Source: Tubulanus polymorphus (lineage: Eukaryota; Nemertea; Palaeonemertea; Tubulaniformes; Tubulanidae). From it: a stretch of 64,000 bases of DNA. A program made the position numbers and the translations under genes. Location of the stretch: NCBI RefSeq assembly GCF_964204645.1, contig NC_134026.1:19610650-19674649 (forward strand), given 5' to 3'. Under the pieces are notes generated by a model, which was not told the DNA's origin, did no database searches, and saw only the letters and a list, made by a program, of their open reading frames with translations. Of this stretch, positions 5,101-39,090 are shown one piece after another (positions within the stretch are counted from its first letter, which is position 1; each line of letters starts with the position of its first letter).

Positions 5101-8100
5101 ATTTTATCATGAAATAATGTGAAAAAGCCGGTTTGTAAGATCGGAGTGAAAATTCGCTCTAGGCCCTGTATTCAACCAACTCATTTCAATGTCACTGCGT
5201 TGGTGCAAATTTCATTGTTTTTCGCCGCTTTTTGATAAGTCATTCTCTCATATTTTACAGACAGTTGAGACTGGAAAACGATCGCGATCATCAGGAACAG
5301 GCGTATCAGAGACTGAAAGACAACGTCGAACAGTGCGAACGCGACTTGCAAACGAAGAAGGAAAAGGAGCGACAACTCGGCCTGAAAGTGAAACAGCTTA
5401 CTTCAAAACTGAAATCGGAAAAGGAGGAGGTACCGCTTACGCAATACGATCTACAAATATTGACATATTATTATTCTATGAAGTTTTGGTACAGTAGCGT
5501 GTTCAGGCTGCATCCCCACTTGCCAGGGGTCTGGTATCGCTCCCAAACTCACTCACCAACGCCCTGGCCTCGCTTAATTTCATTGCTGGCGCTTTAAGGC
5601 CGGCTTATGTCGTCAAGCAACGCGATGCCTACCGATGCAACCAGGTTTATTGCTGATTAGCGGCCTACGAGCGGCCACCAGTTGCTGCTCTATGGGTTCG
5701 ACATAAGCCGGCTTGCGATGGCAACTCGTCGCCTACCGACTCGTCGCAGGCTAGTTGACTTAGTTAGAATTAGTTAGTTTAATGATCATAATCAAATGAG
5801 ATGATTGTCAATGAACAAAGAATTAGAAGAAAAACAATAAGTTTTTATATTGTAACTAGAGTTACAAAAATATTTACAGGAAAACAGTGCAGAAAACAAG
5901 TACCATACTATACACATATCATTTCAAACATCAAATTAAATGTAATATTCAAACCCCAATTTAACGTACTTCTTTAATCCATTAGACGCCGCGACTTCAT
6001 ATTTATGTTCCAGAATAACAAAAATTGAATTGGCCAATTGAATTTGCATACAAAGATTATTAGAGATGCAGTGTGTGAAAACCACTGAAAATGATGCATT
6101 ACAACCATTGGTTATTTTGAAGATAATTATACAGGCTTTCCATCGCTGTATAGATTTGGTCGATCATCGGTCAAAAGTTTGACCTTTGGCCCCTCAAACT
6201 ATGGGTGGCGCTATAGCACAACGGACGTTCTGCGGAGATACAAGTCCGATGTCGACGGACATTCTATTGTCTAATGGGTTAAAATGATTTTTCAAGGGAA
6301 TGAATAGTCATCTAGAGATGAATTTCAGAGAAACGTAAAATTGAAAGAGATTTCTTTTCCATCGTCAGGTGAAACGGCTCAATTCGGTGATGCACCACCG
6401 CAACGTTCAATATCAACACGAATTGAAGAAGAAAGAGCGCGAAGCCCTGAAAATAAAGGACCGCCTACATCAAGCTTTAATGGACAAAAAACAAGAGAAG
6501 AGAATTGGTAAGAATAGAAATACAGTCAGCCTCCGATATACCGCCCAAATCAGTGCAGAACGACTTTGGCGGAAAAGAGAGTATGGCGGTGTATCGGGGG
6601 TGTTTTACTATGTGTTTGTATTGAGATGTACATTGAGGTAACCTGGCAGTAAATGGCAGTCGGGGTGGCGGTAGGCCTATATGGGAGGCCAGTATATCGG
6701 GGTGGTTCATTGTATACACTTCGAAATTTTGAATGAAGAATTCGCAAGGATAAACACTCCTTGAAATCAAATTAGGCCTACATTAGTTCATTTTCAAATA
6801 TTATACTCTTAAGAGTGAAATTCTAAACAAGAAGAGGGTCAGCACTTATCACTTTAGAAGAGTATCTTTAGTTGACCTCTGTAAATAGCTTAATTTTGAA
6901 TTTGAAATCTTCGTCGTTGATATTGTTAAATTCCTCTGTATTTACAGGAATGCAAATTTTAAACTCGCTCCAGCGAGTCGATGGCAAGCGAGGCACATGG
7001 AAAACTAGTTCAAGGTATGGTTGTTTACATCAAGCCGTCTAGCATGTCTGCACGCTCTCGTCATCAACAACTGACAACTCAACACGTTAGGTGTGAAAGA
7101 CAATACCAGTTGGTGCCTAAAACTGCGTTTAATGGTATCTGTTTCATAACCATGCAACATGTTTCATAGCCGGTTTGGCCTATAAGTGGATCACCTAATG
7201 GATGACCCCCTTATCCAGTAAATTACCACATGCATAAGACCCCCTTATCTAGTTAATTTCCCCATATGCATAAGACACCCTTATCTAGTTAATTACCCCA
7301 TATCCATAAGACCCATTATCCAGGAAGAAAGACACTCTAAATATTTGGATGGATATATGAAAGCTGCGGGTACTGGAGTTTGTAATGGGTAGTGTAGTGT
7401 GATCTGTGTGCATTTGTGGCCAGCACACAGATCACATTGTTCAATGGGGTTTGGTCCAGGACTCGCGAGATTTTCAACAACGTGGAAGTAACGTGTAATA
7501 TATGATGACTTGAATTGCATGACTACCTACCACCCCTCATTATTGTTGGAAAACTAAACGCTCGGCACTGACTAAAAATTAGTAATAACATTTTAGAAAT
7601 GGCCAGAATTTTAACTTAGGTTGTATCTCATTTTTATTTTACAATTGCGATTGGTATTAATTTTTTTTAAACGGCCGTTAAGGCTTCATGTTTCGTCTGC
7701 AATTCACTGCAAATAGTTACGCAACTACGCACATTTCAGTGTTTTTGGCAGCTGTTCACTCAATCGGCACCGTTCGTGACTAGCTTCACTGCGGAATTAT
7801 CATTAATTAACATCGCCATATCACATCATCAACTTATATTGTGCCTTAAAACCCTAACAGCCAAAATAATTGAAATGCACACACGATTTCTATCATTGAA
7901 AATTGAGAGAGTGGCCATGTTTGTGTTCTGCTGCTTCGCGTAAATCCAGCACGGTGGCGGAACTGCGCGGAGTGGGGCCGATACGTCTAGTTAATTACCC
8001 CATATCCATAAGACCCCTTATCTAGTTAATTACCCCATATCCATAAGATCCCTTATCTTGTTAATTACCCCATATCCATAAGACCCCTGATCTAGTTAAT

Positions 8101-26400: not shown

Positions 26401-29126
26401 CGAACGTACTATCTGAACGCTCCCGAATGGTACAAATGGATAGTCTCTGCTACCCGCTATCAAACTTGACCAAATAGATGGCGTTGTCGTTATTACTAGT
26501 GACTTCAATCCGAGAAATCAAAAGATCGCTCCAGTACTGTTGGATTCGCAGTAGTCATGAGATTAAGATGGCTAAATCACAACAAACGCCTAGCCTATCA
26601 TAATCGCCTGATCATTGTTTACTGTCCAAACGGTATTGAATCTTTGATCAAATAGGATCTAGGCCTAAAAGGATACTTAGAGGGTGGAAGTCTTATTTGA
26701 TTGTAAGAATAGGGTTCATAGTATAGCCTCTATGATCGATCAAATTACATGACTTTCTAATAAGACTATTTGGCCCAATTCGATGACTTTGAAGTCTGTG
26801 ACTGAATGTCATAAAATTCTTATATTGGTCAGACCACCCTCAAAGTTTCAAAGCTAATAAGGTACCTGTCATCAATTTATGATGACAGGAATTTACGACT
26901 TTTTTATGAATATTACCAGTATGTAAAGTATCGTGTAAAATTGAATTTTGATGACGAAATAGATGATAATAAATAAGAAATAAGGTGGGCATCAAAAGTG
27001 TGAACGCTAAAAAGGGAGGTTAGGGAGCTGTTCCCTAATAATAAACCCAGCCTGTAATTTTTCATAAAGCAGTCAATCATTGACCAGGCTAATGGCCTCG
27101 AAGGTTTAGCGTCACCTTTGCAGCCGCTTTTCCCAGAATGGCGTGTTGAATGTCTTCTTTAGATTCTTCCATCTCGAGCAGTTTAGAAGATTTCTTACGC
27201 ACCCGCCCGGTTCTCGAGATGTAACCGGCATCTGAAAATGCATCAGAAATATACTAAAGGTACATACGCAAAACATTGCTGATTTGACAAGTATCGTGTA
27301 CATGGGGAAGTGCCAAACTTACGCATCCTATGGAAGCATTTCAAAATTTTCATATGCCTAGTTATGTAATTAGAATAGGTCTAACTTGCGGGAGTGGGTG
27401 GGAGGTTAAAGGCCTCCTGTGGATTGATCGTAACTGCCCAACTATCAATCATTGTTATATGATTCGAACATTAATATCAATGAATAATAATGAGAAAATA
27501 TAGTGCGAATAGAGCGGGATTCGAACCCAAGCCACGATATTGCTAGCGTAACGTCTTTCCACTAGACCACAAAGGTTCTTGCAATCCGTCAGTAAGTTTC
27601 AACTACATCTACCGTTAGGGTCACCTTGTGTGGCGCTAATGTTATCAATGAAGTTATTAAGGTTAGGGCACAGGGGCTCATATCGGAATTGTAGGCTACA
27701 GGCATAGCAGGCATTGGCATAACATCAACTTTCTTTTAACAAAGACCCTTTTTGTGGCTTTTCACGGAAAGTGCAGATCTGCACCTCTCATAAACGGTTC
27801 AATCAATTCTATTCTGTATCACTGTTTGAGATGAGGAATGTCATCAGGAATTCAGTGGAGTGCGGTTTACTTTGTGATATCTCCACTTGAAAGTAGGTTT
27901 TTGGCACGGTTTTTGTCTCGAGATTGTCGCGATTACATGACCCACTCAATTTGAGAAAGAAAAAGAAAAATTACTTGTCAATTTTAACAATAGTATCAGA
28001 CTCTTTGGCTAGGCCTGGCATTAATAACCCCAGTGACTGTTGACTAAATTTAATTAATTTCATGCACTGATTACCCTCACATAGTTTCAGCAAATACTTG
28101 TGACAAATCTTCACTTCACAGATTTTGAACGCTGTGGCTACTCGTACGGACCCGTACGGATTACTCAGGAGGCTATTCGTACAGAACTGGGATCTGTACG
28201 CTAATAACTGTCGGTGATTGGCTGATTAACGCTGCGCATGCGCACAGAGATGCGCGACTTAGAAAATTCAAGGAAAGTGTGAAGAATAGAGTTAGAGAAA
28301 AATAGAGCGGATCGAGCTTGACTCGAACCCAGGCCAACAAATTACTAGCGCAGCATCATACCACTACACCACCGAGCTCGCTGACAATCAGTCGAATGTT
28401 TTAACTAGCCTCACCTTACCCTAACCCTATCCCTACCCGTACGAACCAGAGTAATCAGTACGGGTGCGTACGAATAGACTACGGAATTATTTGTACAGGA
28501 ATACTAATAATACTAATAATAATATTATTCCTGAAGATGACTATTAGGATATAGTCGAAACGTTGAAATAAACTACTATCTCGAAGTTTCATTTTCGGAC
28601 TTTTTCGTTATAATTGTGGGATTCTCTCTACAACGATTATTTTCTTGTCAGCTGTTTGGAACAAGGCGTCAAATTCATGCTTTTGTGCAAATCTTATTTG
28701 ATTAGATTACACGTGACTAGCAAATTATGATTAGGAAAATCAAATCTGATTTGACAAGATAAATTCGCCTTCAGCTGTGTTCACTGTTATTGTGTACAGA
28801 TTTACCAATCCAATATGGCGTCCTATTGAAAGATCGTCACGATTTTAATAAAAAGCGGGCCAAAAATCTACTTTCTAGTGAAGATATCACAAAATAAATC
28901 ACTGCATTGGATTCCGTGAATCATTCTACAGGCAGAACAGTGATTTGTAATTCATCAGATTGCGTCAATCACGAGTGGTGCGGATCTGCACTATTATTTA
29001 TTAACATTTTCAAAAATTTGAGAATTTGCTTTCTTTTTTTATTTTACCTTCATCGGTACATATTTTTCCAGTTTTAGCAGTGCCGCTGTCCTCAGTATTA
29101 TCCGAAATCTTTCGTTTCGCTGACAT
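20493..29126 (-). CDS. HMGXB4: HMG-box protein HMGXB4 (HMG2L1) orthologue, 8 coding exons
   Basis: This is a nuclear HMG-box protein; the vertebrate protein is linked to transcriptional repression, Wnt signalling and a chromatin-remodelling complex. Exons in transcript order: 29126-29048, 27231-27116, 25597-24631, 23472-23378, 23106-23001, 22556-22261, 21802-21710, 20660-20493. Joins are GT-AG and in frame; total 639 aa against about 600 in human. The start is MSAKRKISD. Exon 2 encodes a basic [15 protein letters not shown] block like the vertebrate N-terminal region. Exon 3 is one long Lys/Glu/Pro-rich, low-complexity exon. The HMG box (about 429-490) is split over exons 5 and 6, with [17 protein letters not shown] and [21 protein letters not shown] Gly-rich linker follows. 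The C terminus holds [20 protein letters not shown] and ends [12 protein letters not shown], nearly identical to the vertebrate end. It is convergent with SSX2IP. Confidence 0.93.
20729..20826. repeat. Palindromic MITE in HMGXB4 intron 7
   Basis: GGACCTGGTTCCACAGTT at the left end is the inverse of the right end AACTGTGGAACCGGGTCC with one mismatch. It forms a 98-bp hairpin between the last two coding exons of HMGXB4. It is similar in plan to the hairpins at 16847 and 23643. Confidence 0.7.
23643..23782. repeat. Palindromic MITE in HMGXB4 intron 3
   Basis: AGGGGCCAGTAGCACAG at the left is inverse to CTATGCAACCGGCCCC at the right with mismatches. Inner blocks built on TCTTAAGACTGG and CAGTCTAAG also pair. 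A second, weaker inverted pair follows at about 23783-23897. Both lie in the intron between exons 3 and 4 of HMGXB4. Confidence 0.6.
25874..26424. mobile_element. MITE with about 22-bp inverted ends
   Basis: GGGAGCGTTCAAATAGTACG at the left end is matched inversely by CGTACTATCTGAACGCTCCC at the right end. The interior is G-rich and includes GTACGTACG motifs. No transposase is seen in the 551 bp. It lies in the large second intron of HMGXB4 (25598-27115). The rest of that intron shows nothing recognisable. Confidence 0.75.
27498..27585 (-). repeat. tRNA-derived SINE-like fragment
   Basis: On the minus strand the sequence reads TTTGTGGTCTAGTGGAAAG (A-box-like), a short arm around CTAGCAATATCG, and then GGTTCGAATCCCGC, a perfect B box. 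Stems are imperfect, so I do not call a functional tRNA. The arrangement is close to the tRNA-like part of repeat R1 (for example 28305-28385), pointing to a tRNA-derived repeat family in this genome. It sits in HMGXB4 intron 1. Confidence 0.6.
28135..28491 (-). repeat. Dispersed repeat R1, copy 2 (uninterrupted)
   Basis: This copy has the same layout as 357-712: CTCGTACGGACCCGTACGG at one end and inverse GTACG-rich blocks at the other. The core contains GCGCATGCGCACAGAG, then CAAGGAAAGTGTGAAGAATA, and a minus-strand tRNA-like segment with B box GGTTCGAGTC near 28305-28385. It matters because the core sequence around 28278 is the unoccupied version of the site into which the DIRS-like element at 29618-36764 inserted. 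Located in HMGXB4 intron 1. Confidence 0.75.
28531..28561 (+). ncRNA. Hammerhead-ribozyme-like core
   Basis: CTGAAGA (28531-28537) is followed by a perfect 6-bp stem GACTAT/ATAGTC (28539-28544 with 28551-28556, loop TAGGAT) and then GAAAC. This is the order CUGANGA, stem II, GAAA found in the hammerhead core. Hammerhead motifs of this sort are known from Penelope-like retroelements. Stems I and III and a cleavage triplet are not convincingly visible, so activity is doubtful. Confidence 0.35.
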
Positions 29127-29529: not shown

Positions 29530-29807
29530 CGCTATTTTGCCAATGGTGTGTTTTGATTGGCTAATTGACGCCACGCATGCGCACAGAGGTGCGCGACTTA
29601 GAACATTCAAGGAAAGTATAATATCCACACTGATCGGTGGTTTCTCGTTCCGCGGTTATGTAGTGATTGGGGATAAAAAACGAAACCCGGAACAAGTAGC
29701 CACATACGCTGGGTTTTTTTTTTAATATCTTAACCCATCCTGTATTTCATTGGCCCATTCCCTCCACTGTACAAGGCACACCTGTCACACTCGACTCCCC
29801 ATCTTCC

Positions 29808-29925
29808 GCAAACTAAGAAGTGACCGCGTCACTAGTGTCACATGATCAGTGTGGATAGTATAATATCCACACTGATCGGTGGTTTCTCGTTCCGCGGTTA
29901 TGTAGTGATTGGGGATAAAAAACGA
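29808..29925. repeat. Internal B-A junction of the split direct repeats
   Basis: Block B (29808-29859, identical to 36713-36764) abuts block A (29860-29925, identical to 29618-29683). The junction GTGTGGATAGTATAATATCC is the product expected when the two element ends are joined in a circle. Flanking it are inverse GATCAGTGTGGATA and TATCCACACTGATC, which could form a recombinase-binding palindrome. Block B also holds the palindromic GTGACCGCGTCAC. Confidence 0.88.
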
Positions 29926-30148
29926 CCCAACCCCTTACTGATAACCACAACAAATACTAAAAACCTTTCCACAACTACACCCAAACCCCAACTATACTAG
30001 GCCGAGTGAAACGAGGCCAAAAATCAGAAGACAGAATATGCATCCGAAGTCGATTTATTTAGACCCGCCTTAGAAATCGGGTATATTAATATACAAAATT
30101 CGTATTAGCGTCTAGTTTCTTATCGATATAAATTGGCGTACGTAGAAC

Positions 30149-31597
30149 CTACATGGATGAAAACATTGGTTTAAACCCGCTTGTAGCATTATTCAGGCGA
30201 TATGATTCTACACTTTTATCAGTTAACTGTCCCATAGCTTGACCGAGAGAGTCAGAGACTTTACCCTGCATCAGACAAGCATGTTTGGTGTAATGCTTTG
30301 CCATGGACTGATGCTTCCAACCAATATAAGAAGTCACCTCTTTAGATGTATGGCCCAAAGAAGCCAACATAACGGAGCATCCAACCCTGAAACTATGCGG
30401 GGTCTCACCGTCATACATACAAATTTCTTTTAGGTAAGTTTTCAAACGGCTTCCCACCGCATTCGAGTCGAGTCCGTTATTAACGATAGCGCCCTCTTTA
30501 TTCATTATCCGGAATAAGTAACCCCCTCCAAGGTCAACTCCAAGCGCCTTTACAACAGCAAAATACCTTTCAATCGCCAAAACCGGGCACAGAACCGGGT
30601 TGTTAAAACGAGTAACTACGGATGTCAAAACCGAACAATCCCGCAGTGTTTTCCCGAACGTTAGATTTGAAATGATTACCCTTCCATCGTCACTCTGAGA
30701 GATCCCATCTGTCAAAACCCGACCTAAGTCTGCCGCCCTATGTCCTGTTAGAAAATCAAGTTTGAAGAAAGCCTGCTCCCTTGCTAAAATATACTCCGTT
30801 ACCGCGGGTAAATCTGGGACAGCCAAGCGTTTATCAATACAGAGAATCATTGCCGTCAACTTGCTAAGGTACATTGGGACGGCTTGTTTAGGGGTGATCA
30901 TGGCCACCGATTGCTCCTTCTTAGTCACTCTCAGGTATTGTTTTACCTCTTCTGATATGGTAGGATTCCCAGTTCCGCGCTCGGGATGCCAACAGTCAAT
31001 TTTACCAATCGAGTTAAATATTGCCCTTATCTGACCCAGATAGGAATCAACCGTTCCGGCTGCCAGTCTTTTGGGGCATAAACAACCACCGGTCCTTGGT
31101 GAGGCCTTCGAGACTGCTTTCCAACCTCGTACCGGACAGGTTAAAGAGTGTACTACTGTTTTATCCCGAGCATCCCTGAATACCATGAACCTACAGATAT
31201 CCCTAGGTGATGCCGTCAACAAGGATCTCGATGGGCGCAGTGACCTGAGGAACAAGACCAAATCTTCTTCCAGTTTTGACTTCTTTCGGCCATAAACAGA
31301 GTTGCGCTCACTCTCTGACATAGAATTTAACCGGGCATCCAAATCTTTTAATGGTAAGGCTAGCAATGTACCGTTCTCGCCATCCGCATTGCTTAACTCT
31401 GAACCACAATTGTAGCAGAAATTTGAGTGCTGTCGCGAGCGATGTCCACAGTCCGCACAATGGTTCTCGTGATGCAGAGACAGATCCTGTAAAATATGAC
31501 AGATCTTAAAAGAACCATAATAAACGAGGTATATCAGAAAAGACAAAACGTTTATTAACGTAAAAGCAAAGTTATGCATCCGGATTTTACCGTGCAT
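30149..31597 (-). CDS. DIRS-like tyrosine recombinase
   Basis: This ORF would integrate the circular cDNA of the element. Of the 482 residues from the first Met, the C-terminal half shows the tyrosine recombinase signature: R in LTGHRAADLG (about 282), the HxxR box PHSFRVG (about 409), GW and the nucleophile Y in SMAKHYTKH (about 444). Around residues 46-68 there is a CADCG...CYNCG zinc-ribbon-like pair, which is less usual for this family. A splice acceptor (TTTTACAG/GATCTG) sits inside the ORF just before the zinc ribbon, so the hydrophobic first 37 or so residues may be intron read-through. It lies 3' of the RT ORF, as in other DIRS elements. Confidence 0.88.
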   Translation of the reverse strand: MHGKIRMHNFAFTLINVLSFLIYLVYYGSFKICHILQDLSLHHENHCADCGHRSRQHSNFCYNCGSELSNADGENGTLLALPLKDLDARLNSMSESERNSVYGRKKSKLEEDLVLFLRSLRPSRSLLTASPRDICRFMVFRDARDKTVVHSLTCPVRGWKAVSKASPRTGGCLCPKRLAAGTVDSYLGQIRAIFNSIGKIDCWHPERGTGNPTISEEVKQYLRVTKKEQSVAMITPKQAVPMYLSKLTAMILCIDKRLAVPDLPAVTEYILAREQAFFKLDFLTGHRAADLGRVLTDGISQSDDGRVIISNLTFGKTLRDCSVLTSVVTRFNNPVLCPVLAIERYFAVVKALGVDLGGGYLFRIMNKEGAIVNNGLDSNAVGSRLKTYLKEICMYDGETPHSFRVGCSVMLASLGHTSKEVTSYIGWKHQSMAKHYTKHACLMQGKVSDSLGQAMGQLTDKSVESYRLNNATSGFKPMFSSM

Positions 31598-31673
31598 AGA
31601 TCAGAGTAGAAAATAAAGACCACCGTTACGCAACACCATGTTATCGCTCAGGAAAACATGTCAATTTAATCTT

Positions 31674-33866
31674 TCAATCTAATCTATCAAAATCTATCCT
31701 ATAAACAAACAGATCCCACGGTATGCCTACTGTATCCTCCACAAAACCTTTTTTAGTCGGATATTTCAAAACACCCACATCTCCCTTTTTGCCAAGCAGG
31801 CGACGTTTGGATGCACGAGAGGTTACCAAAGGCCACGAGAATGGCCTCGGAAAGATTTCTGGAATGACGATAGATGCTTCTTTGACTGCGTCTGCCAAGA
31901 ATCGTAAAACCGCCGGTATCTTAGAAATTGGCGGAAACACATATGGATTAACCTCGTCGCATAGATTTTGTGCGAACAGATCTACACCACTAGAATCAGT
32001 AGATGGCGTTGGCGTAAAATGTCGTAGTGGAGAGCCTGACAAATCTACCATTACGTTCGAATCAAGGGCCATCAAATCAACCGAGTGTCCGTTTTCACCC
32101 CCATATTCACGTTGCACGAGCTGCCATATACGCGGAGATAACATACATTCCGATTTTCGCAAAATTCGCGAGGGAGCGTCTGCTAGATTCTCTTTTGACG
32201 GTACATAATGCAATTTCAACAACACATTTTGTTCTGCTGTTAGTTCAAACAAAAGCTTAATTGCTTCTGACAGATCATGTGATTTGGAACCTTCACCAAC
32301 CCATGCCGCAATCATAGTTTTATTATCTACAAAAGCGTCTACTCTACTGTCTCTAATTTTATCAGAAACCACCATTAAAACGTTTTTAAGTGCCAGGGTT
32401 TCCTTTATTACAATGGGTTTTTGTACCAGCTCCTGTGGCCAATAATCGGAGGGCTCAAACCTCTGCTCACCAATCGTGACTATCCCACCCCATCTATAAG
32501 AGGATGCGTCCGTATACATCTGAATTCTGACATGCCACTCTTGGCGCCACCTTACCACCCTTGGCAAACATTCAATTATCTTCCAGTACTCTATCTCAGT
32601 TCTGAGATTGCCCTCAACCCTAATGAGTCTCGAGTTTCTGAATGCCTTAGAAATAGCTAAGTTTGACTCCCTTGTATAAAGCTTCGCAGCTGGTACAACC
32701 AACGAGAAGGATATGATCTTACCCACAAACCGCTGAATCGTTTTAATGTTAACGAATTCGGACGATAAAATATTGTCCCTTAAAATGGCAAATTTTACCA
32801 CCTTATCATTTGGGATCTCAAAACGTTCCTCTATAGTGTTAACAAATAAGCCTAAATGCTTTAATAACTGACACGGTTCCAGGACGCATTTATGGAGGCC
32901 TAGAAAATACCCTAGTCTTGTTAAAACTTGGGCAGTCATATATAGAGCTAACCTAGCCTTTGTGATGGATTCTAAACCCCTAGCCGAGGAACTTAAAAGC
33001 TCCCCATTTAAACGGTCATCAATGTATTGAGTTATCTGTACTCCTAGGTCTCGAAGGTAACCCGTTGCAACCAAGCCAGTTTTCTGGTATATATAGGCCG
33101 AGGCCTTAAAACCAAAAGGAATAACGGTGTAAACGTAATACCAACCTTTCCAGCTGATTCCCAAATACACCTCACTTCCCGGTGTTACCCTGATGTGGTC
33201 GTAACCACTTTTATCATCGACAGAGGTCATAAACGCGCTTTTATGTAGCATGCGAGGTACGTTTACCAAAGTTTCCAAATGGAAAGGCGAGTCCCGAATC
33301 CATAGATTTAGAAATCGTTCGTCGTGGCACATTCTGGGTTTCGTGGGTTCAACCGTCAAGGGCATAACTAAATGCGGGGGTGGATCGACCCCAACCTTTC
33401 CCCAGACCTTGAGTGATCCATTAGCCACCCGACCTTTTAATGTTGTAGAAATGAAATTTTCAAATTGTTCGCAGTTTCCAGAATTCGGGAACACCGTTTT
33501 TGGGGGCGCATCACAATCATACGTCTTGCCTTTAAACTGACCCTTAAACCTCTTAAAGAAATCTGGGATATGAACACCATCTCGCACCCAAGATAATATC
33601 GTGTCTGACAACGGATCCTCTGACTGCCGTAGAATAAATTCCCATTCCTCCAGATGGCGACTCAGTTCACCTGCGACGAAATTCTCCGGGTCCCTGAGGG
33701 GCAGGTCAAAAATTGTCAAATTGTTATACTTGTCCGCCGATTTCGAAACGGTCTCGGCTGAGACGACCTCAGGCAACGGTAACTGGACGGATGAACCTCT
33801 AGCACCAACCCAAAACACGTCTTTACACACAGGTATCTTCAACGGAACAAAATCCTGAAAAGACAC
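31674..33866 (-). CDS. DIRS-like reverse transcriptase-RNase H
   Basis: This 730-residue polyprotein copies the element's RNA. The RT region spans about residues 130-340, with SVDDKSGYDHI (motif A) and QYIDDRLNG (the catalytic DD) and PFGFKASAYIYQK between them. RNase H follows (about 450-570), with MYTDASSYRWGG, IKETLAL, VDNKT and NLADAPSR supplying the acidic residues. The tail carries LRHFTPTPSTDSSGVDLFAQ and PYVFPPISKIP, common after RNase H in this order. No methyltransferase or hydrolase domain is evident. The acceptor-like TCTTTTCAG/GATTTT just after the first codons suggests that this ORF may be reached by splicing. Confidence 0.9.
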   Translation of the reverse strand: MSFQDFVPLKIPVCKDVFWVGARGSSVQLPLPEVVSAETVSKSADKYNNLTIFDLPLRDPENFVAGELSRHLEEWEFILRQSEDPLSDTILSWVRDGVHIPDFFKRFKGQFKGKTYDCDAPPKTVFPNSGNCEQFENFISTTLKGRVANGSLKVWGKVGVDPPPHLVMPLTVEPTKPRMCHDERFLNLWIRDSPFHLETLVNVPRMLHKSAFMTSVDDKSGYDHIRVTPGSEVYLGISWKGWYYVYTVIPFGFKASAYIYQKTGLVATGYLRDLGVQITQYIDDRLNGELLSSSARGLESITKARLALYMTAQVLTRLGYFLGLHKCVLEPCQLLKHLGLFVNTIEERFEIPNDKVVKFAILRDNILSSEFVNIKTIQRFVGKIISFSLVVPAAKLYTRESNLAISKAFRNSRLIRVEGNLRTEIEYWKIIECLPRVVRWRQEWHVRIQMYTDASSYRWGGIVTIGEQRFEPSDYWPQELVQKPIVIKETLALKNVLMVVSDKIRDSRVDAFVDNKTMIAAWVGEGSKSHDLSEAIKLLFELTAEQNVLLKLHYVPSKENLADAPSRILRKSECMLSPRIWQLVQREYGGENGHSVDLMALDSNVMVDLSGSPLRHFTPTPSTDSSGVDLFAQNLCDEVNPYVFPPISKIPAVLRFLADAVKEASIVIPEIFPRPFSWPLVTSRASKRRLLGKKGDVGVLKYPTKKGFVEDTVGIPWDLFVYRIDFDRLD

Positions 33867-34101
33867 TAAGGTCCATCAGTCCAGCCCCGTTGCCAGCACG
33901 ACATAAGCCGTGACAACAGACTTAGATAGCCTGTGACAACAAAGCCAACCGACCACAAACAACCGATAACAAAATGAATTATCCAACATATGATCAATTT
34001 AATGGAGAGAAAATAACCTTGTTTATCATCTTTAACAACACAATATAACATTACGTATCATCCAAAACTAAATTCAATCTAACTCCTAAGTTCTAACTCA
34101 T

Positions 34102-34686
34102 TTAGACAACCTTACTTTCAGTCTTCGTTACCACTTGTGGTTGCTTATTCTCAGGACAGTCGCGAACAAAATGACCCTCTTTGCGGCATAAGAAACAATT
34201 CCCCCTGGAACTTCTCCCTGCTCTCCTTGTACCGTAACCTCGGCGCCCAACATATCCCCTGCCTACACCCGACCCACCCCAATAGCCGTAAGTTGGGTAA
34301 TAATTGTTTGTGTGCGGCTTTTTAGCCCATTTTGCCTCCACTGATGCCACTTTTTCATCATCCGGGGAGCCAATCAAACGCCTACACAAAGCAGGTAAGT
34401 CTGGAGAATCGATATTTCTCTTGATACTTTTCAGCACAGAATCAAAATACCCTTTTTTCGGATCTGTGGTTTCAGCTGCCACCTCTACCAAGCCTTCCAT
34501 ACAACCGAGAAGGAAGTATGGATCAAAGAAAGAGCCCGGCCTTTGAAGCGCTGCCCTCACCTGCATCAGAGCGCTCTCTACTGAACGAGCTGGATGTGTA
34601 ACCTTCTTCTCGAGTTCCTCCAGACGCTTTAACAATTTTTTGTCCTGAAACACACGAGATAAATACAAATATAGACTAATCAGCAT
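34102..34686 (-). CDS. Gag-like ORF with zinc knuckle
   Basis: A 194-residue open frame ends in a Gly/Arg/Tyr-rich stretch and a CCHC knuckle, CFLCRKEGHFVRDC (about 167-180). That motif binds RNA in retroelement Gag proteins, so a nucleocapsid-like role is likely. The coding part probably starts at GACAAAAAATTG behind an acceptor (GTGTTTCAG), since the first 14 or so residues are hydrophobic and unlike the rest. A donor-like GTAAGG lies within the last codons. It is placed between the small first ORF and the RT ORF. Confidence 0.75.
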   Translation of the reverse strand: MLISLYLYLSRVFQDKKLLKRLEELEKKVTHPARSVESALMQVRAALQRPGSFFDPYFLLGCMEGLVEVAAETTDPKKGYFDSVLKSIKRNIDSPDLPALCRRLIGSPDDEKVASVEAKWAKKPHTNNYYPTYGYWGGSGVGRGYVGRRGYGTRRAGRSSRGNCFLCRKEGHFVRDCPENKQPQVVTKTESKVV

Positions 34687-35115
34687 GACTTCGCAGTAAA
34701 TAGTTTAAAAGATCGCCATGATTTCGGTTAACGAACAATCTATAGTCAAATCTATCATCCTAAATGTTTCATGCTTCTCCTTCATACCATTACCTACATC
34801 TTAATGGGTTATCTTTACATTCCATCTTGCGTCTTACATTTTCAGAAGCTGTCTTTTAAAAAACCTAATCTCTATAAACTTTCTCCTCCAGTAAAGGAAA
34901 CGAAAAATCCTCTAACTTAACCAAAACAGATCCCCATTCTGTACCCACTAAATCCTGGTATGTGCAAGGCCCAGAGCAATAAACCTTAAACGCACAGAGC
35001 TACACATGTTTTAAACAAATGTCTATTAATTTCCCAATAAATCTACCCAGTCCAGGCCTACCGACCAAACCCGGGGGCTACAAATACAGATATAAAACTG
35101 AGAAAATAAAAACAC

Positions 35116-35511
35116 TCACCGGTTCAGAACCCCATCTGGGGTTACCGCATCACTCTCCGCACCGACCGTGCTTGTACTAGGTGCGGGCACAGACTTCCTT
35201 TTCTTTGGTACCTGAGGGAGCTTGTTCGCGTTCTCGTTAGCAAAAATTATCAAGTGGCGCGCTAGCAGCGGACCTTCCGTCTCCTCCCAGTCCACCAGCG
35301 TTAACAGATCATTCATCTTTTTACCAGTCAGAGAAAATACCGCATCATCCACATACTTCCTCGGTGCCGCTTCTAGTGGCTTAAGCCTTTCGAACCTAGC
35401 GAAGGCTGTAGGCCGATCTACGTTCAAATCTAACCCTCTTAATTTCAATAACATGGGGATGATGTCCACCGTTTTCAAACCGTCTGACGATTTTAAAACC
35501 ACCGGTTCCAT
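35116..35511 (-). CDS. First ORF of the DIRS-like element, unknown function
   Basis: A 131-residue frame starts MEPVVLKSSDG and ends at a stop overlapping a strong donor (CCG/GTGAGTG). It is preceded by an acceptor-like TCTGTTTCAG just before the ATG. The sequence is mixed charged (LPQVPKKRKSVPAPSTST near the C terminus could be a nuclear localisation signal). I do not recognise a family. Given the splice signals it may be the N-terminal part of Gag joined to the zinc-knuckle exon, although the simplest donor/acceptor pair does not keep the frame. Confidence 0.55.
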   Translation of the reverse strand: MEPVVLKSSDGLKTVDIIPMLLKLRGLDLNVDRPTAFARFERLKPLEAAPRKYVDDAVFSLTGKKMNDLLTLVDWEETEGPLLARHLIIFANENANKLPQVPKKRKSVPAPSTSTVGAESDAVTPDGVLNR

Positions 35512-36199
35512 CTCTGAAACAGATAAGCGAAAAGAACATCAAAATTACTACCGCCCCGTACCAGGAATAAAATTTAAAAGTATTAGCAAACTGATCCTAA
35601 CAACCGTCGACAAAGTTTAACAAAATATATACATGTGACCAGACCAGAAAAACGTTAAATTTTCGGCCACATGCCGTAATTTTTTCCCTAGCCACCATCT
35701 TAAATTAAACAAGAACTAATACGACAGTAATACACTAATAAAAACTCACCTTAACTCATCTGTACGATACACAGTCAAACAAGTCTAATAATACCACCGA
35801 GCTCCAAAACTGTCCTCAAATCTGAAAAGCGATTTGACTAACAGGACTTGATGCTAACCCAACACTACCGCTAACTACAAAACGAGACCAAGGACCAGGT
35901 AAAACGTCACCAGATTGCCTTTACACGCCCAGTAAGATTAAACCGAATTTTGAAAAGCCAATGAAATCCCACAAAAGAATTCCAAATCCAGACCTTGGAA
36001 ATGCGCCTATGAATGAAATAAATCTAGCAAAATGCACGCACTGTGACTTACAGTATTTACCCACGTCCCAATAAAGGCAAAAGCAATCACGCATGTAGCA
36101 CTGTAACCTAAATGTCATTGACGGTCAAAATGTACCAAAGTACCCTAGTACTTCTAACCTGACCGAGAATTTTGCCTCAATAAAATCACTATCAATCCA

Positions 36200-36545
36200 T
36201 CACCCGTGCTTCATCCAAAATACTGCACTTATCCCAGAAAATCTAAAAGACCATCTGCCCGTGCTTAAACCCAAAATCACGGTACAGTATAACCCAAAAC
36301 ATCAAAATCAGTGTTTCATCCGAAATGACTGCACCAAAATTAACAAACCTAGTGCTTCATCCTAAATGACTGCACTAAAACTAACAAAACCAGTGTTTCA
36401 TCCGAAATGACTGCACCAAAAATAAATAAAAACCAGTGTTTCATCCGAAATGACTACACTAAAATCAATAAACTCCAGTGTTTCATCCAAAATGACTGCA
36501 CTAAAACTAATAAACCCAGTGTTTCATCCAAGATGACTACACCAA
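36200..36545 (-). repeat. About 42-bp tandem repeats in the leader of the DIRS-like element
   Basis: Six to seven units built on CAGTGTTTCATCCGAAATGA followed by CTGCACTAAAA lie between the first ORF and the B terminal repeat, i.e. in the 5' leader on the minus strand. Units vary in length (about 40-45 bp). Repeats of this kind can act as promoter or RNA-structure modules; here that is only a guess. Confidence 0.75.
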
Positions 36546-36814
36546 AGTCTCCAAACCAGGCAAAAGGGGACCAAAACTAAAGAGGAAACCACAAACAAAG
36601 TTCCAAAGAAAAATACCAAATGCTACCGGAAAGGAACCACAGAAAATCGGCAAACGCAGGAGACAAAACTCACCACAAAACAGCTGACCACACACGTCCG
36701 ATAGCTTCGAAAGCAAACTAAGAAGTGACCGCGTCACTAGTGTCACATGATCAGTGTGGATAGTGTGGAGAACAGAGTCAGAGAAAATAGCAGCATAGAG
36801 CGGGATGCAAAAAC

Positions 36815-39090
36815 TATGGAATACCTCAAGGGCCATACGACTTACGAGTTACGTTTTACGAGTTACGATTTACGTTTTACGAGTTACGATTTACGTTTTA
36901 CGAGTTACTTATACATTTCCTTGAATATTCGTTACGACTTCCGTTTTACGAGTTACTTATACATTTCCTTGAATATTCGTTACGACTTCCGTTTTATGAG
37001 TTACGAATTACAACTTAAATACGTTTTACGAATTACGAGTTACGATTTACGAGTTAAGTGTTGGAGTTTCGGTTCGCAAGAGTTCAAGGACAGTGGCCAC
37101 GTGGTAGGCATTTCACTGTGTGGGTGTAATTATTAGACGAATAACTGTAACGATGATGGATGGCTGTATGCGGCCCAGTGTTTTCAAAAAATAAATACAT
37201 TTTTTCTATATTGATGAATCTTGTTCTAATTATTAAAATCATTTCCAGCTTAGATCTACATATTGAAATATCGTCTATTAAAATCATCGTGCACGTAACG
37301 GGACAGTCATCAGTCAGTGTGCATTGTCAGCATTTAACAGATTTTGAGAAGGTTCGCACAGCAGATGGCCAACGCGCAGATTTTCTGCCCTGTAATAGCC
37401 CACTGCAGTCGAGATTGATTCACTATGTACAATAAATTACTCGACTTATTATGCTGTTTGAAATGACAATTCGACTTCATTTTGAAACCCGTTCTTTGAA
37501 TTTAGCGCGCTTCGGATATCCGAAGCCAATTAGTGAACCAGAAAGAAACTTTCCATGATGGGTTTCTGTGTAATTGTTTCTGTTTCATTCACCGAACTCG
37601 CTGTCAAAAAGGCGATTCTCGATATAAATAGTAATGGGTTTTCCCCGCGGGATACCCGCTTTGGGAAAGGCACCTGAATCGATGCTACGAGTTCGAATCC
37701 CAATATTTAGACGTAATTTATTATTCTTTGAAATTAATTCTTAGAATTTCTATTTATGATAGGATGTGCAGGTTTTGATTTGGTAATGATGTTAATAAAA
37801 GTTAACCTCTTAAGGTATTGTTTTCTATCTATCATTTGTGACGGATTAGTTCGATGCTCCTCACAACCCGCCCCACCACGTGTCACTTATTCACGGACAC
37901 GCGGATTGTATCATTTGTAATAGGCCTACCACATGAAAGAGTCCATGGCCTACCGATCACGCTATGTGCGATGAAAGTAGTGTTTGAATAAAACAAATTT
38001 TTAATGAAATAAACATTATTTATCATAATCAATCAATAGATCAGGTGCCGCCTAAATAATTGTTTGTTTCGTGAAATTTGTACAAAACTTTGCGACTTCG
38101 TCATGTCTTGTGACCCTGAAAATACTAGAAGAATCATCGGTATAAGCTTATAAAACGGCGAGGTCAACATAGTAACAACAACTTCGGGGATTGAAAAAAA
38201 AACTCGAAAGAATTATTTCTTATACTGATGAGTTATACTGATGGGGAGTAGCGACCGTCATTGACACCGGTTATTTATCCATTCACTATCAAATGTGACG
38301 AGCCCAATAAATGATTGCGCATAGATTCGGCCTCTCAGCATTTAGCACAGCAGTTCCGAGAAGTGTTAAGACCGATCAGCGCGCGCGCTATCTAAAACCG
38401 GTGCTAGTACGATCAATATCTACAGGTATTCTGTATTCTGTTAACTCGACCGCCGATCACACATCTATCTCTGTACTTCGATTTCCGATTTCAAAATCAA
38501 ACCCCCTGTTTCGCTCCCGGCAGGTGTGGTGGGTCTGTAAGGGACACTCAATCGAAAAATCAAACAAAATTTACCAGCCAAATAAATAAATAATGGGGAC
38601 AATCCCTATTTTAAGATCAAAAACCAAAAAAAAAAAAAAAATATCTACAGGTATATACGTGTTCAGTATTACACAGCGAGTACCAGTATGTTGATCGAGC
38701 GTCGTCGTAGCAACGCGCTATACAGCGGCTTGAACTAGCGAGTAACGTTAATTATCTTATAACCAAATTAGAGCACTTATAACCCTCGGAATCAAATATA
38801 AACCAAGCTGCACCATCTACATCAAGTAGAGAATACCTGTGTGAAATTACAGAATTGTCGGTCCACACAAACAGCTTAAATCGTGTCATAAAGAAACATC
38901 CACAGACGGACAGACATGACGACGATGCCATAGATGGGTTCGTCTGACGACGAAACCCATCAAAAATGTGTAATTCGTAAAACGTAAGACGTAAAACGTA
39001 AGTCGTAACGTAGGAAATGTATTAGTAACTCGTAAAACGTAACTCGTAAGTCGTAAAACGTAACTCGTATGGCCCTTGAGGTATTCCATA
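36815..39090. mobile_element. Element with inverted satellite-like arms
   Basis: TATGGAATACCTCAAGGGCC at 36815 is perfectly inverted at the right end (to 39090). Inside each arm comes a run of short degenerate repeats of ACGAGTTACGTTTTACG type (36837-37058, and inversely 38976-39073). The interior (37.1-38.97 kb) has no recognisable gene; open frames such as 38311-38589 look random. An A-run is at about 38625. It may be a non-autonomous DNA element with satellite-bearing termini. Confidence 0.6.

Follow-up and report, generated by a model that had tools for sequence, protein, structure and literature searches.

Junctions of an ALOG-bearing PAT-like retrotransposon in the nemertean Tubulanus polymorphus point to insertion of a circle by a tyrosine recombinase

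How does a retrotransposon that encodes a tyrosine recombinase join its DNA to a genome? A full-length element at positions 29618..36764 of the window (the whole 64,000-nucleotide stretch of Tubulanus polymorphus DNA that was analyzed) allows the question to be put at the level of single bases. The initial annotation had read the locus as a DIRS-like element; its extent and its identity as a tyrosine-recombinase retrotransposon stand, whereas the DIRS1-type placement gives way to a PAT-like element with an ALOG-bearing recombinase. The genes lie on the minus strand of the window, which corrects the annotation and makes that strand the sense strand, and the strict ends are uncertain by one to three bases under the junction rule given below (shared AG/G). 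The element carries split direct repeats in the order A1-ORFs-B1A2-B2, read on the minus strand. The 5' terminal A1 (36713..36764) and internal A2 (29808..29859) are identical over 52 bp, the internal B1 (29860..29925) and 3' terminal B2 (29618..29683) are identical over 66 bp, as had been claimed, and both pairs occur in all eight near-full copies in the genome. The inverted ends extend over 35 nt at 71% but are perfect over the outer ~14 bp only. Rfam (gathering threshold) and ARAGORN returned nothing for the window.

The minus strand encodes Gag in two exons, the first with the ATG and the N-terminal part (35120..35511; ~130 amino acids) and the second with the C-terminal part and a CCHC zinc knuckle (34102..34644; PF00098, 2.9e-5). 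A 726-residue exon (31674..33854) encodes reverse transcriptase (RVT_1, 9.9e-8; Ty3 RT match; YIDD motif) and RNase H, followed in its C-terminal part by a degenerate Dam-like domain. A direct Pfam match to a methyltransferase-like domain is absent in the element's protein. Profile comparison with genome loci matching PF05869 (five of six such loci used, one of the six above the curated cut-off) nevertheless identified the domain with 95.9% probability (E = 6e-9), at a score of 59.9 against at most 20.8 among 20 column-shuffled controls. The 445-residue recombinase exon (30149..31486) encodes, from its N terminus, a zinc-ribbon-like stretch (its cysteines can be made out by eye, while the PF12773 match, at E = 5e-4, falls short of the cut-off), an ALOG domain (PF04852, 2e-19) and a catalytic domain (PF00589, Phage_integrase, 1.5e-7). 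Structure-level matches were LSH3 (8p5q) for ALOG and Cre (E = 0.018). R, HxxR and Y, the catalytic motif of tyrosine recombinases, can be read off the translation of the catalytic domain. A PHROGs search gave weak matches only, the best being an integrase at E = 0.016, and two AlphaFold predictions made without an alignment reached mean pLDDT values of only 33.8 and 33.2.

Judged by layout and domains, the element is PAT-like: it combines split direct repeats, a zinc finger (the knuckle) in Gag, RT-RNase H and, on the indirect evidence of the profile, a methyltransferase-like domain after RNase H. The echinoderm-form Pat1-like PAT described in PMC4157794 likewise has split direct repeats, a methyltransferase domain and a zinc-finger Gag; the recombinase of the window element differs in its ALOG domain. 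Assignment to Ngaro or to the DIRS1 type is very improbable. In the account of PMC4157794, Ngaro too is defined by split repeats whose internal members lie downstream of the recombinase, and Ngaro as described in PMC8547959 and PMC9210276 shares the A1-ORFs-B1A2B2 layout and the recombinase, but those descriptions give it no methyltransferase domain, whereas a Dam-like domain follows RNase H here. DIRS1-like elements (PMC3266345, in the portion cited) likewise have a recombinase, RT-RH-MT and duplication-free insertion at a short sequence common with the circle junction, but their terminal repeats are inverted and their junction spans 3 bp, where the window element has split repeats and a shared AG/G beside a 6-nt spacer. 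Neither the long inverted terminal repeats nor the internal complementary region of the DIRS1 type was found in the element, and both placements were rejected on repeat layout and the methyltransferase-like domain. With ALOG N-terminal to the recombinase catalytic domain, the sequence places the element in the ALOG-DIRS class of Iyer and Aravind (2012). ALOG-domain DIRS1-type retroposons were reported from marine animals and Ectocarpus (PMC3537659) and, in that account, likewise have a zinc-knuckle Gag, RT-RNase H, an inactive methylase-like domain, terminal direct repeats and a recombinase with ALOG and catalytic domains, preceded there by a zinc ribbon. The element is thus of a kind already known, and the useful part lies in its junctions; predicted splicing, the crossover and empty sites are described here and do not figure in the sections of PMC3537659 cited.

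Empty copies of the target show what the insertion changed. The left target half (29554..29617) ends GGAAAGT, with a shared AG at 29615-29616 and a T at 29617 that is the element's or shared; the right flank starts GTGGAGAAC, and the right target half (36763..36800) begins with the shared G and the target's own six bases, GTGTGG. That these flanks rebuild an uninterrupted repeat had been proposed from a copy in the window (28215..28310), which reads GGAAAGT-GTGAAG, and it is borne out by other genomic repeat copies (e.g., GGAAAGT-GTGGAGAACAGAGTTAGAGAAAATA). Of five fetched copies, four align with the joined flanks without a gap at the join; the remaining one has six extra bases next to it. Empty counterparts, which are paralogous repeat copies and not alleles, were found for six of nine target sites. 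Target duplications, which the annotation had named as evidence against its own reading, were not seen at any of these six, nor were deletions or fillers. Insertion into one particular repeat family was rejected: some of the nine sites belong to different repeats, and others to DNA that has no further match.

The joined ends are also present within the element, as the annotation had noted: the B1-A2 junction (29859/29860) reads GGATAGT/ATAATATCC and was found in all eight near-full copies. Around it (29844..29877), a 14-bp arm (29844-29857), the spacer GTATAA (29858-29863) and an inverted arm (29864-29877) form what, by sequence, is a Cre-type site. Tyrosine-recombinase sites consist of two inverted 11-13-bp arms and a 6-8-bp spacer (PMC3212892, as excerpted), and the element's 14-bp inverted arms and 6-nt spacer fit this design. 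The spacer is identical in 8/8 copies and the arms in 7/8 (the eighth has a single changed arm base), while the longest arms among 100 mononucleotide shuffles reached 9. A crossover within a shared AGT, as first suggested, holds for AG, present in 9/9 copies (p ~3e-12), and fails for the T, which is replaced by G or A (AGG, AGA) at three of the nine right junctions. Given this p value and the shuffles, shared AG and the arms-spacer design are both beyond chance. Target and element agree at positions -5 to +1 in 6, 5, 8, 7, 9 and 9 of nine copies, and at +7 in one. At the C1 site, empty array units (3/3) and the right junction both read GATAG-GTTGAA and the left junction reads GATAG-TATAA, which places the exchange at or left of the G.

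The junctions are one-sided. In 9/9 copies the left junction has the element's six spacer bases and the right junction has others. Where empty copies exist (six sites), those other bases are the target's, save for one base at the C9 right junction that matches the element and not the empty copies. This pattern suggests that a single strand's exchange, at one border, was inherited; nine such outcomes alone give p = 0.004 against a 1:1 expectation.

The whole locus is very probably explained by an ALOG-bearing PAT-like element whose circle, closed at the B-A junction, was inserted by the recombinase. The tyrosine-recombinase insertion of circular cDNA first proposed is thereby supported, by the joined-end junction and by the lack of duplication. 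RNA would be copied into cDNA, and the B1-A2 junction would act as the template on which both ends are rebuilt and joined into a circle. The Cre-like recombinase would then bind the 14-bp arms and exchange strands at the arm/spacer border, ATA/GTATAA, where the junctions are seen and the chemistry is presumed. The target would offer one clear half-site, roughly (GG)ATA/G, and the element would enter without duplicating it. One strand's outcome would be inherited, through either single-strand exchange or strongly biased repair of a mixed spacer.

Two related families, with recombinases ~28-50% identical by segment, bear on these steps. The arms-6-arms design is kept in 2/6 related loci scanned for an AGTAT-centered site, and the G is common to 30/33 left and 12/14 right junctions (the three left ends of L044 type that lack it have A twice and C once). 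Among the 33 L044-type left junctions, 19 have the element's six bases exactly, with 27-30/33 agreeing per position; the fit is poor for the left ends of L046 type, which are degraded. Left ends L097, L098 and L099 (L044-type) and L107 (L046-type) lack the six bases, pointing to the opposite outcome, or decay, at times. At +8 to +10, the relatives' right flanks match the second arm more often than expected, in 22/42 comparisons (p = 0.003) or 28/69 when pooled with the window family (p = 0.035), so that a weak second half-site may exist at the target.

A tentative version of recombinase-mediated insertion, possible though rather unlikely, is that only the strand matching first-strand cDNA was exchanged, at one spacer border and into a half-site, with replication finishing the event as for integron cassettes. 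Integron cassettes (attC) are inserted by a one-strand exchange beside a G, followed by replicative resolution. Such insertion would give the same one-sided junctions, but attC systems are bacterial and lack reverse transcription, and the parallel is mechanistic only. Were the one-strand reading correct, what recombines with the genome could be a circle of single-stranded cDNA, with the palindromic junction folded on itself. Since relatives show the mild excess noted at +8 to +10, this reading loses some weight and gives it to an ordinary two-strand exchange, with a 6-bp stagger and unbiased repair or replication of the mixed spacer, in which one-sidedness is an accident of sampling. Arms around a 6-nt spacer are typical of ordinary recombinase sites (PMC3212892), and target spacers resemble the element's beyond the G (pooled over 23, there are 14, 11 and 11 agreements at +2 to +4, where ~7 would be expected), as homology testing would give. 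An ordinary exchange is nonetheless improbable: the same outcome recurs in all nine copies of the window family and, among the 33 left junctions of L044 type, in the majority, and a second half-site is absent from the window family (1, 2, 3, 1 and 3 of nine at +7 to +11). Linear cDNA might instead have been inserted by end joining or homologous recombination, and the two to three bases common to ends and target do resemble microhomology. We consider this extremely unlikely, as the same AG/G and half-site recur over copies and families, the nine copies read share the same ends, the six empty-copy sites are free of deletions and fillers, and the element encodes a Cre-like enzyme. End joining was rejected on the recurrent half-site.

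Recombinase-mediated insertion of a circle is a model for these retrotransposons that is years old, long assumed and little tested, and a Dictyostelium review describes their replication scheme as not fully proven (PMC5633606, in the part cited). Recent copies together with empty repeat sites yield base-level junctions and a defined Cre-type circle site that sharpen the model, and the one-sided outcome can be checked in any genome carrying such elements.

As to expression, the element's proteins probably arise from a single 5' coding exon spliced to three alternative acceptors, all predicted in phase 0. Predicted intron 1 (34645..35119, minus strand) has the donor CCG/GTGAGT (GTAAGT in one copy) and the acceptor TTTCAG/GAC; TTTTCAG/GAT directly precedes the RT-RNase H-MT exon and TTTTACAG/GAT the recombinase exon. 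Translation of the three long ORFs without splicing, from their own starts or by frameshift or read-through, is a rather doubtful alternative. An ATG does lie upstream of the recombinase frame, inside the predicted intron; donors alone prove little, since the sense strand has three perfect GGTRAGT and the opposite strand two; and the copies are too alike for conservation among them to count toward splicing. Against unspliced translation, the RT frame has no ATG ahead of its conserved start, and exon 1 is in phase 0 (393 nt) in 6/8 copies, matching the three acceptors. Relatives, read by eye, have phase-0 acceptors before the recombinase in four of six loci (L043, L045, L046, L048) and before RT in two of three (L044, L047).

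The search for other copies that the annotation had proposed returned the eight near-full copies (98.2-99.9% identical), fragments and one copy with a 0.6-kb deletion; an inversion at the C6 pair may be real or an assembly flip. With 13 private substitutions in 7042 columns, the copy in the window is young, as had been claimed. Repeat-pair identity, which had been offered in proof, says little about age, since the pairs are also identical in the near-full copy that has diverged most (75 private changes). Nor is the window copy intact: a one-base length change in exon 1 shifts the frame relative to exon 2 and breaks gag. Exon 1 has its full length in six others and is interrupted in the 9.8-kb copy. 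pN/pS over seven copies, leaving out the 9.8-kb copy, is 0.40 for exon 1, 1.23 for exon 2, 0.56 for RT-MT and 0.66 for the recombinase; with few changes behind these values, selection on the frames is weakly supported. All four coding frames are open, as read from sequence, in one of the eight copies, whereas the animal ALOG copies in PMC3537659 were all reported as inactivated; this copy bears on a reviewer's remark in that paper that further sampling of marine organisms might reveal an active ALOG element. Upstream of the gag ATG, 41-42-nt tandem repeats (36269..36546, minus strand) give seven pattern matches in 7/8 copies and six in the other.

The element at window 29618-36764 is a single retrotransposon insertion with its coding strand on minus, lying in a 268-Mb host genome among genes of animal type (in the window, two rhodopsin-type receptors, an ADIP-like protein, and a matrixin). 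Its sense order is A1 (52 bp), a leader with 41-nt tandem repeats, a two-exon Gag, RT-RNase H-MT, the recombinase, B1 (66 bp), A2 (52 bp), which B1 abuts directly, and the terminal B2 (66 bp). The B1-A2 sequence is that expected from joining both element ends, as the initial annotation had proposed. This circle junction is spanned by perfect 14-bp inverted arms around a 6-nt spacer, GTATAA, whereas the longest inverted arms in 100 shuffles were 9 bp. Arms of 11 to 13 bp and a spacer of 6 to 8 bp are given as typical of tyrosine-recombinase sites in the excerpted PMC3212892. Two loci of related families, L044 and L046, keep the arms-spacer-arms design with changed arm sequences; in the other four related loci scanned, an AGTAT-centered pattern found no such site. 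In a comparison with solved structures, the recombinase matched LSH3, an ALOG protein of plants (1.6e-6), and there was a weak match to Cre (0.018).

Using a 343-base query from the left end, one genome search supplied the further copies sought: seven near-full copies besides that in the window, one 0.6-kb deleted copy, and fragments. In all nine copies, left flanks end in AG followed by T (ATAATATCC), and right junctions read GGATAG followed by T, G, or A. Empty array units at the C1 target site have GATAG-G-TTGAA; the third base thus comes from the target at the right junction and from the element at the left one. Because its origin differs between the two sides, the core common to both ends and target is AG (9/9 copies), and not the AGT to which the crossover had been narrowed. 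Junctions were also read in the L044-type family, whose recombinase segments are 42 to 50% identical to those of the window element, and in a second, L046-type family; these counts are samples, because 40 of 91 candidates were scored in the L044-type search. For the L044-type family, each of the 33 left-only and 7 right-only matches listed was read; for the L046-type family, every right-only match listed (7) was read, as were six of the seven left-only ones (the seventh, inside L046, was read separately). Of the 33 L044-type left ends listed, 30 have G as the border base, although two of these rows represent one flank and another, L100, may be internal; the preceding base is A in 19 of the 33. 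Border G is also found in 12/14 right ends of both families listed, and 5 of the 6 L046-type left ends fetched keep it in otherwise degraded sequence.

Joined flanks were searched in the genome, the best candidates scored, and matching repeat copies fetched, giving paralogous empty copies for six of the nine target sites. Five were read for the window site, four of them gap-free and the fifth 6 bases longer beside the join. Matches ran across the join at C1 (3/3), C3 (6/6), one C6 site (4/4), and, one base off, C9 (4/4); at C10, 4/4 matched on the right, with a left match of only 14 to 15 bases and one copy differing just past the join. Neither target duplication nor loss was found at any of these six sites; absence of duplication had been proposed for the window site. 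C6c, C4, and the other C6 site had no empty copy among the best-scored joined-flank matches; weaker matches across the join were present for C4. The target repeat runs on into a tRNA-like stretch (window 28320-28380) with a minus-strand GGTTCGAGTC, noted by eye, that resembles a box-B motif; this suggests a SINE. ARAGORN called no tRNA in this stretch. Tandem TTACGAGTTACGTTTTACG-type repeats lie near the right target half (window 36840-37070).

When strands are exchanged with a 6-bp stagger, each side is left with a mixed spacer, which replication would be expected to resolve into left-element/right-target or the reverse in roughly equal numbers. Here, all nine copies have the element's own bases in the left six positions and other bases in the right six (p 0.004 versus 1:1). 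Where empty copies exist (six sites), the right spacer is that of the target, apart from a single odd base at C9. Among the L044-type left ends listed, 19/33 carry the exact element spacer, with 27 to 30 of 33 matching per position; L097, L098, and L099 lack it. Our reading is that a single exchanged strand may be inherited. This would be the window plus strand and hence, by the orientation of the element, putatively first-strand cDNA. Biased repair of the mixed spacer is a plain alternative to such one-strand inheritance. Across the nine window-family sites, target and element agree on the left side of the cut and at the G; the agreement declines beyond it, and positions +7 to +11 show no second half-site. 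In the relatives, by contrast, 22 of 42 right-flank positions at +8 to +10 match the second arm (p 0.003), making a weak second half-site possible; pooling with the window family gives 28/69 (p 0.035).

GTATAA begins each of the nine copies on the left, even though their right ends carry non-element spacer bases; the element ends therefore seem to be rebuilt from an internal template and not copied from the parent's flanks. This agrees with the DIRS scheme as excerpted in PMC3266345 and PMC5633606, in which internal-template end repair is combined with circle integration without duplication.

The eight near-full copies are pairwise 98.16 to 99.94% identical over 7072 to 7145 common columns. 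Over 7042 gap-free columns, 13 substitutions are private to the window copy, compared with 2 to 75 for each of the other seven; the lowest values (2 and 2) belong to a near-identical pair and are low partly for that reason. By this count the window copy is recent. Recency had been argued from its identical repeat pairs, and both pairs are indeed identical, but across the near-full copies such identity alone dates poorly. With the last, target-dependent base left out, the 52-bp pair differs at 0/51 sites in seven copies and at one in the eighth; the 66-bp pair has no differences in five copies, one in two, and three in one. The recombinase frame is open in 5/8 near-full copies; a single copy, not that of the window, has all four coding frames open. 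Two copies, L037 and L038 (99.94% identical; assembly G000, C6:12368082-12385712), lie in opposite orientation about 3.3 kb apart. Elsewhere, repeat copies run from the left flank of one into the right flank of its partner, so that with respect to the insertions the intervening segment is inverted, through copy-copy recombination or an assembly flip. The internally deleted copy, L016 (C4:21812664-21813262), has precise ends and follows the same junction rule; its deletion ends share CCC by eye, and it may be either a non-autonomous form or the product of a later deletion.

Exon 1 measures 393 nt in 6/8 copies and 392 nt, one base off, in the window copy; in the 9.8-kb copy L039 (C3:16454833-16464646) it is interrupted, covering about 3.07 kb, with about 2.7 kb inserted inside the element. 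Its 3' border is CCG|GTGAGT (GTAAGT in L039). The frames of Gag-2, RT, and the recombinase all begin directly past a phase-0 CAG|GA acceptor, each with its own stop codon, and no ATG occurs in the stretch preceding the conserved RT start. By eye, phase-0 acceptors were found ahead of the recombinase in 4/6 related loci and ahead of RT in 2/3. A single 5' exon spliced to three acceptors is the prediction that fits best. Introns are reported in some elements of this kind; within the coverage of our literature search, which excluded older subscription papers, no paper was recognized as describing this arrangement.

Split repeats, a zinc knuckle, and an MT-like domain are all present, as in the PAT definition excerpted from PMC4157794, the MT-like domain being detected solely by profile comparison, with direct Pfam scans finding no MT domain in the element. 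Given its ALOG recombinase, the element is a member of the retrotransposon class described in the excerpted PMC3537659; its kind is thus already known, and its junctions are unusually readable. Five loci matching PF05869 (Dam model), one over the cut-off, adjoin RNase H-like sequence (C4:11204213, C2:11588859, C3:16712805, C12:10892792, and C2:16900406) and probably represent other DIRS-type families.
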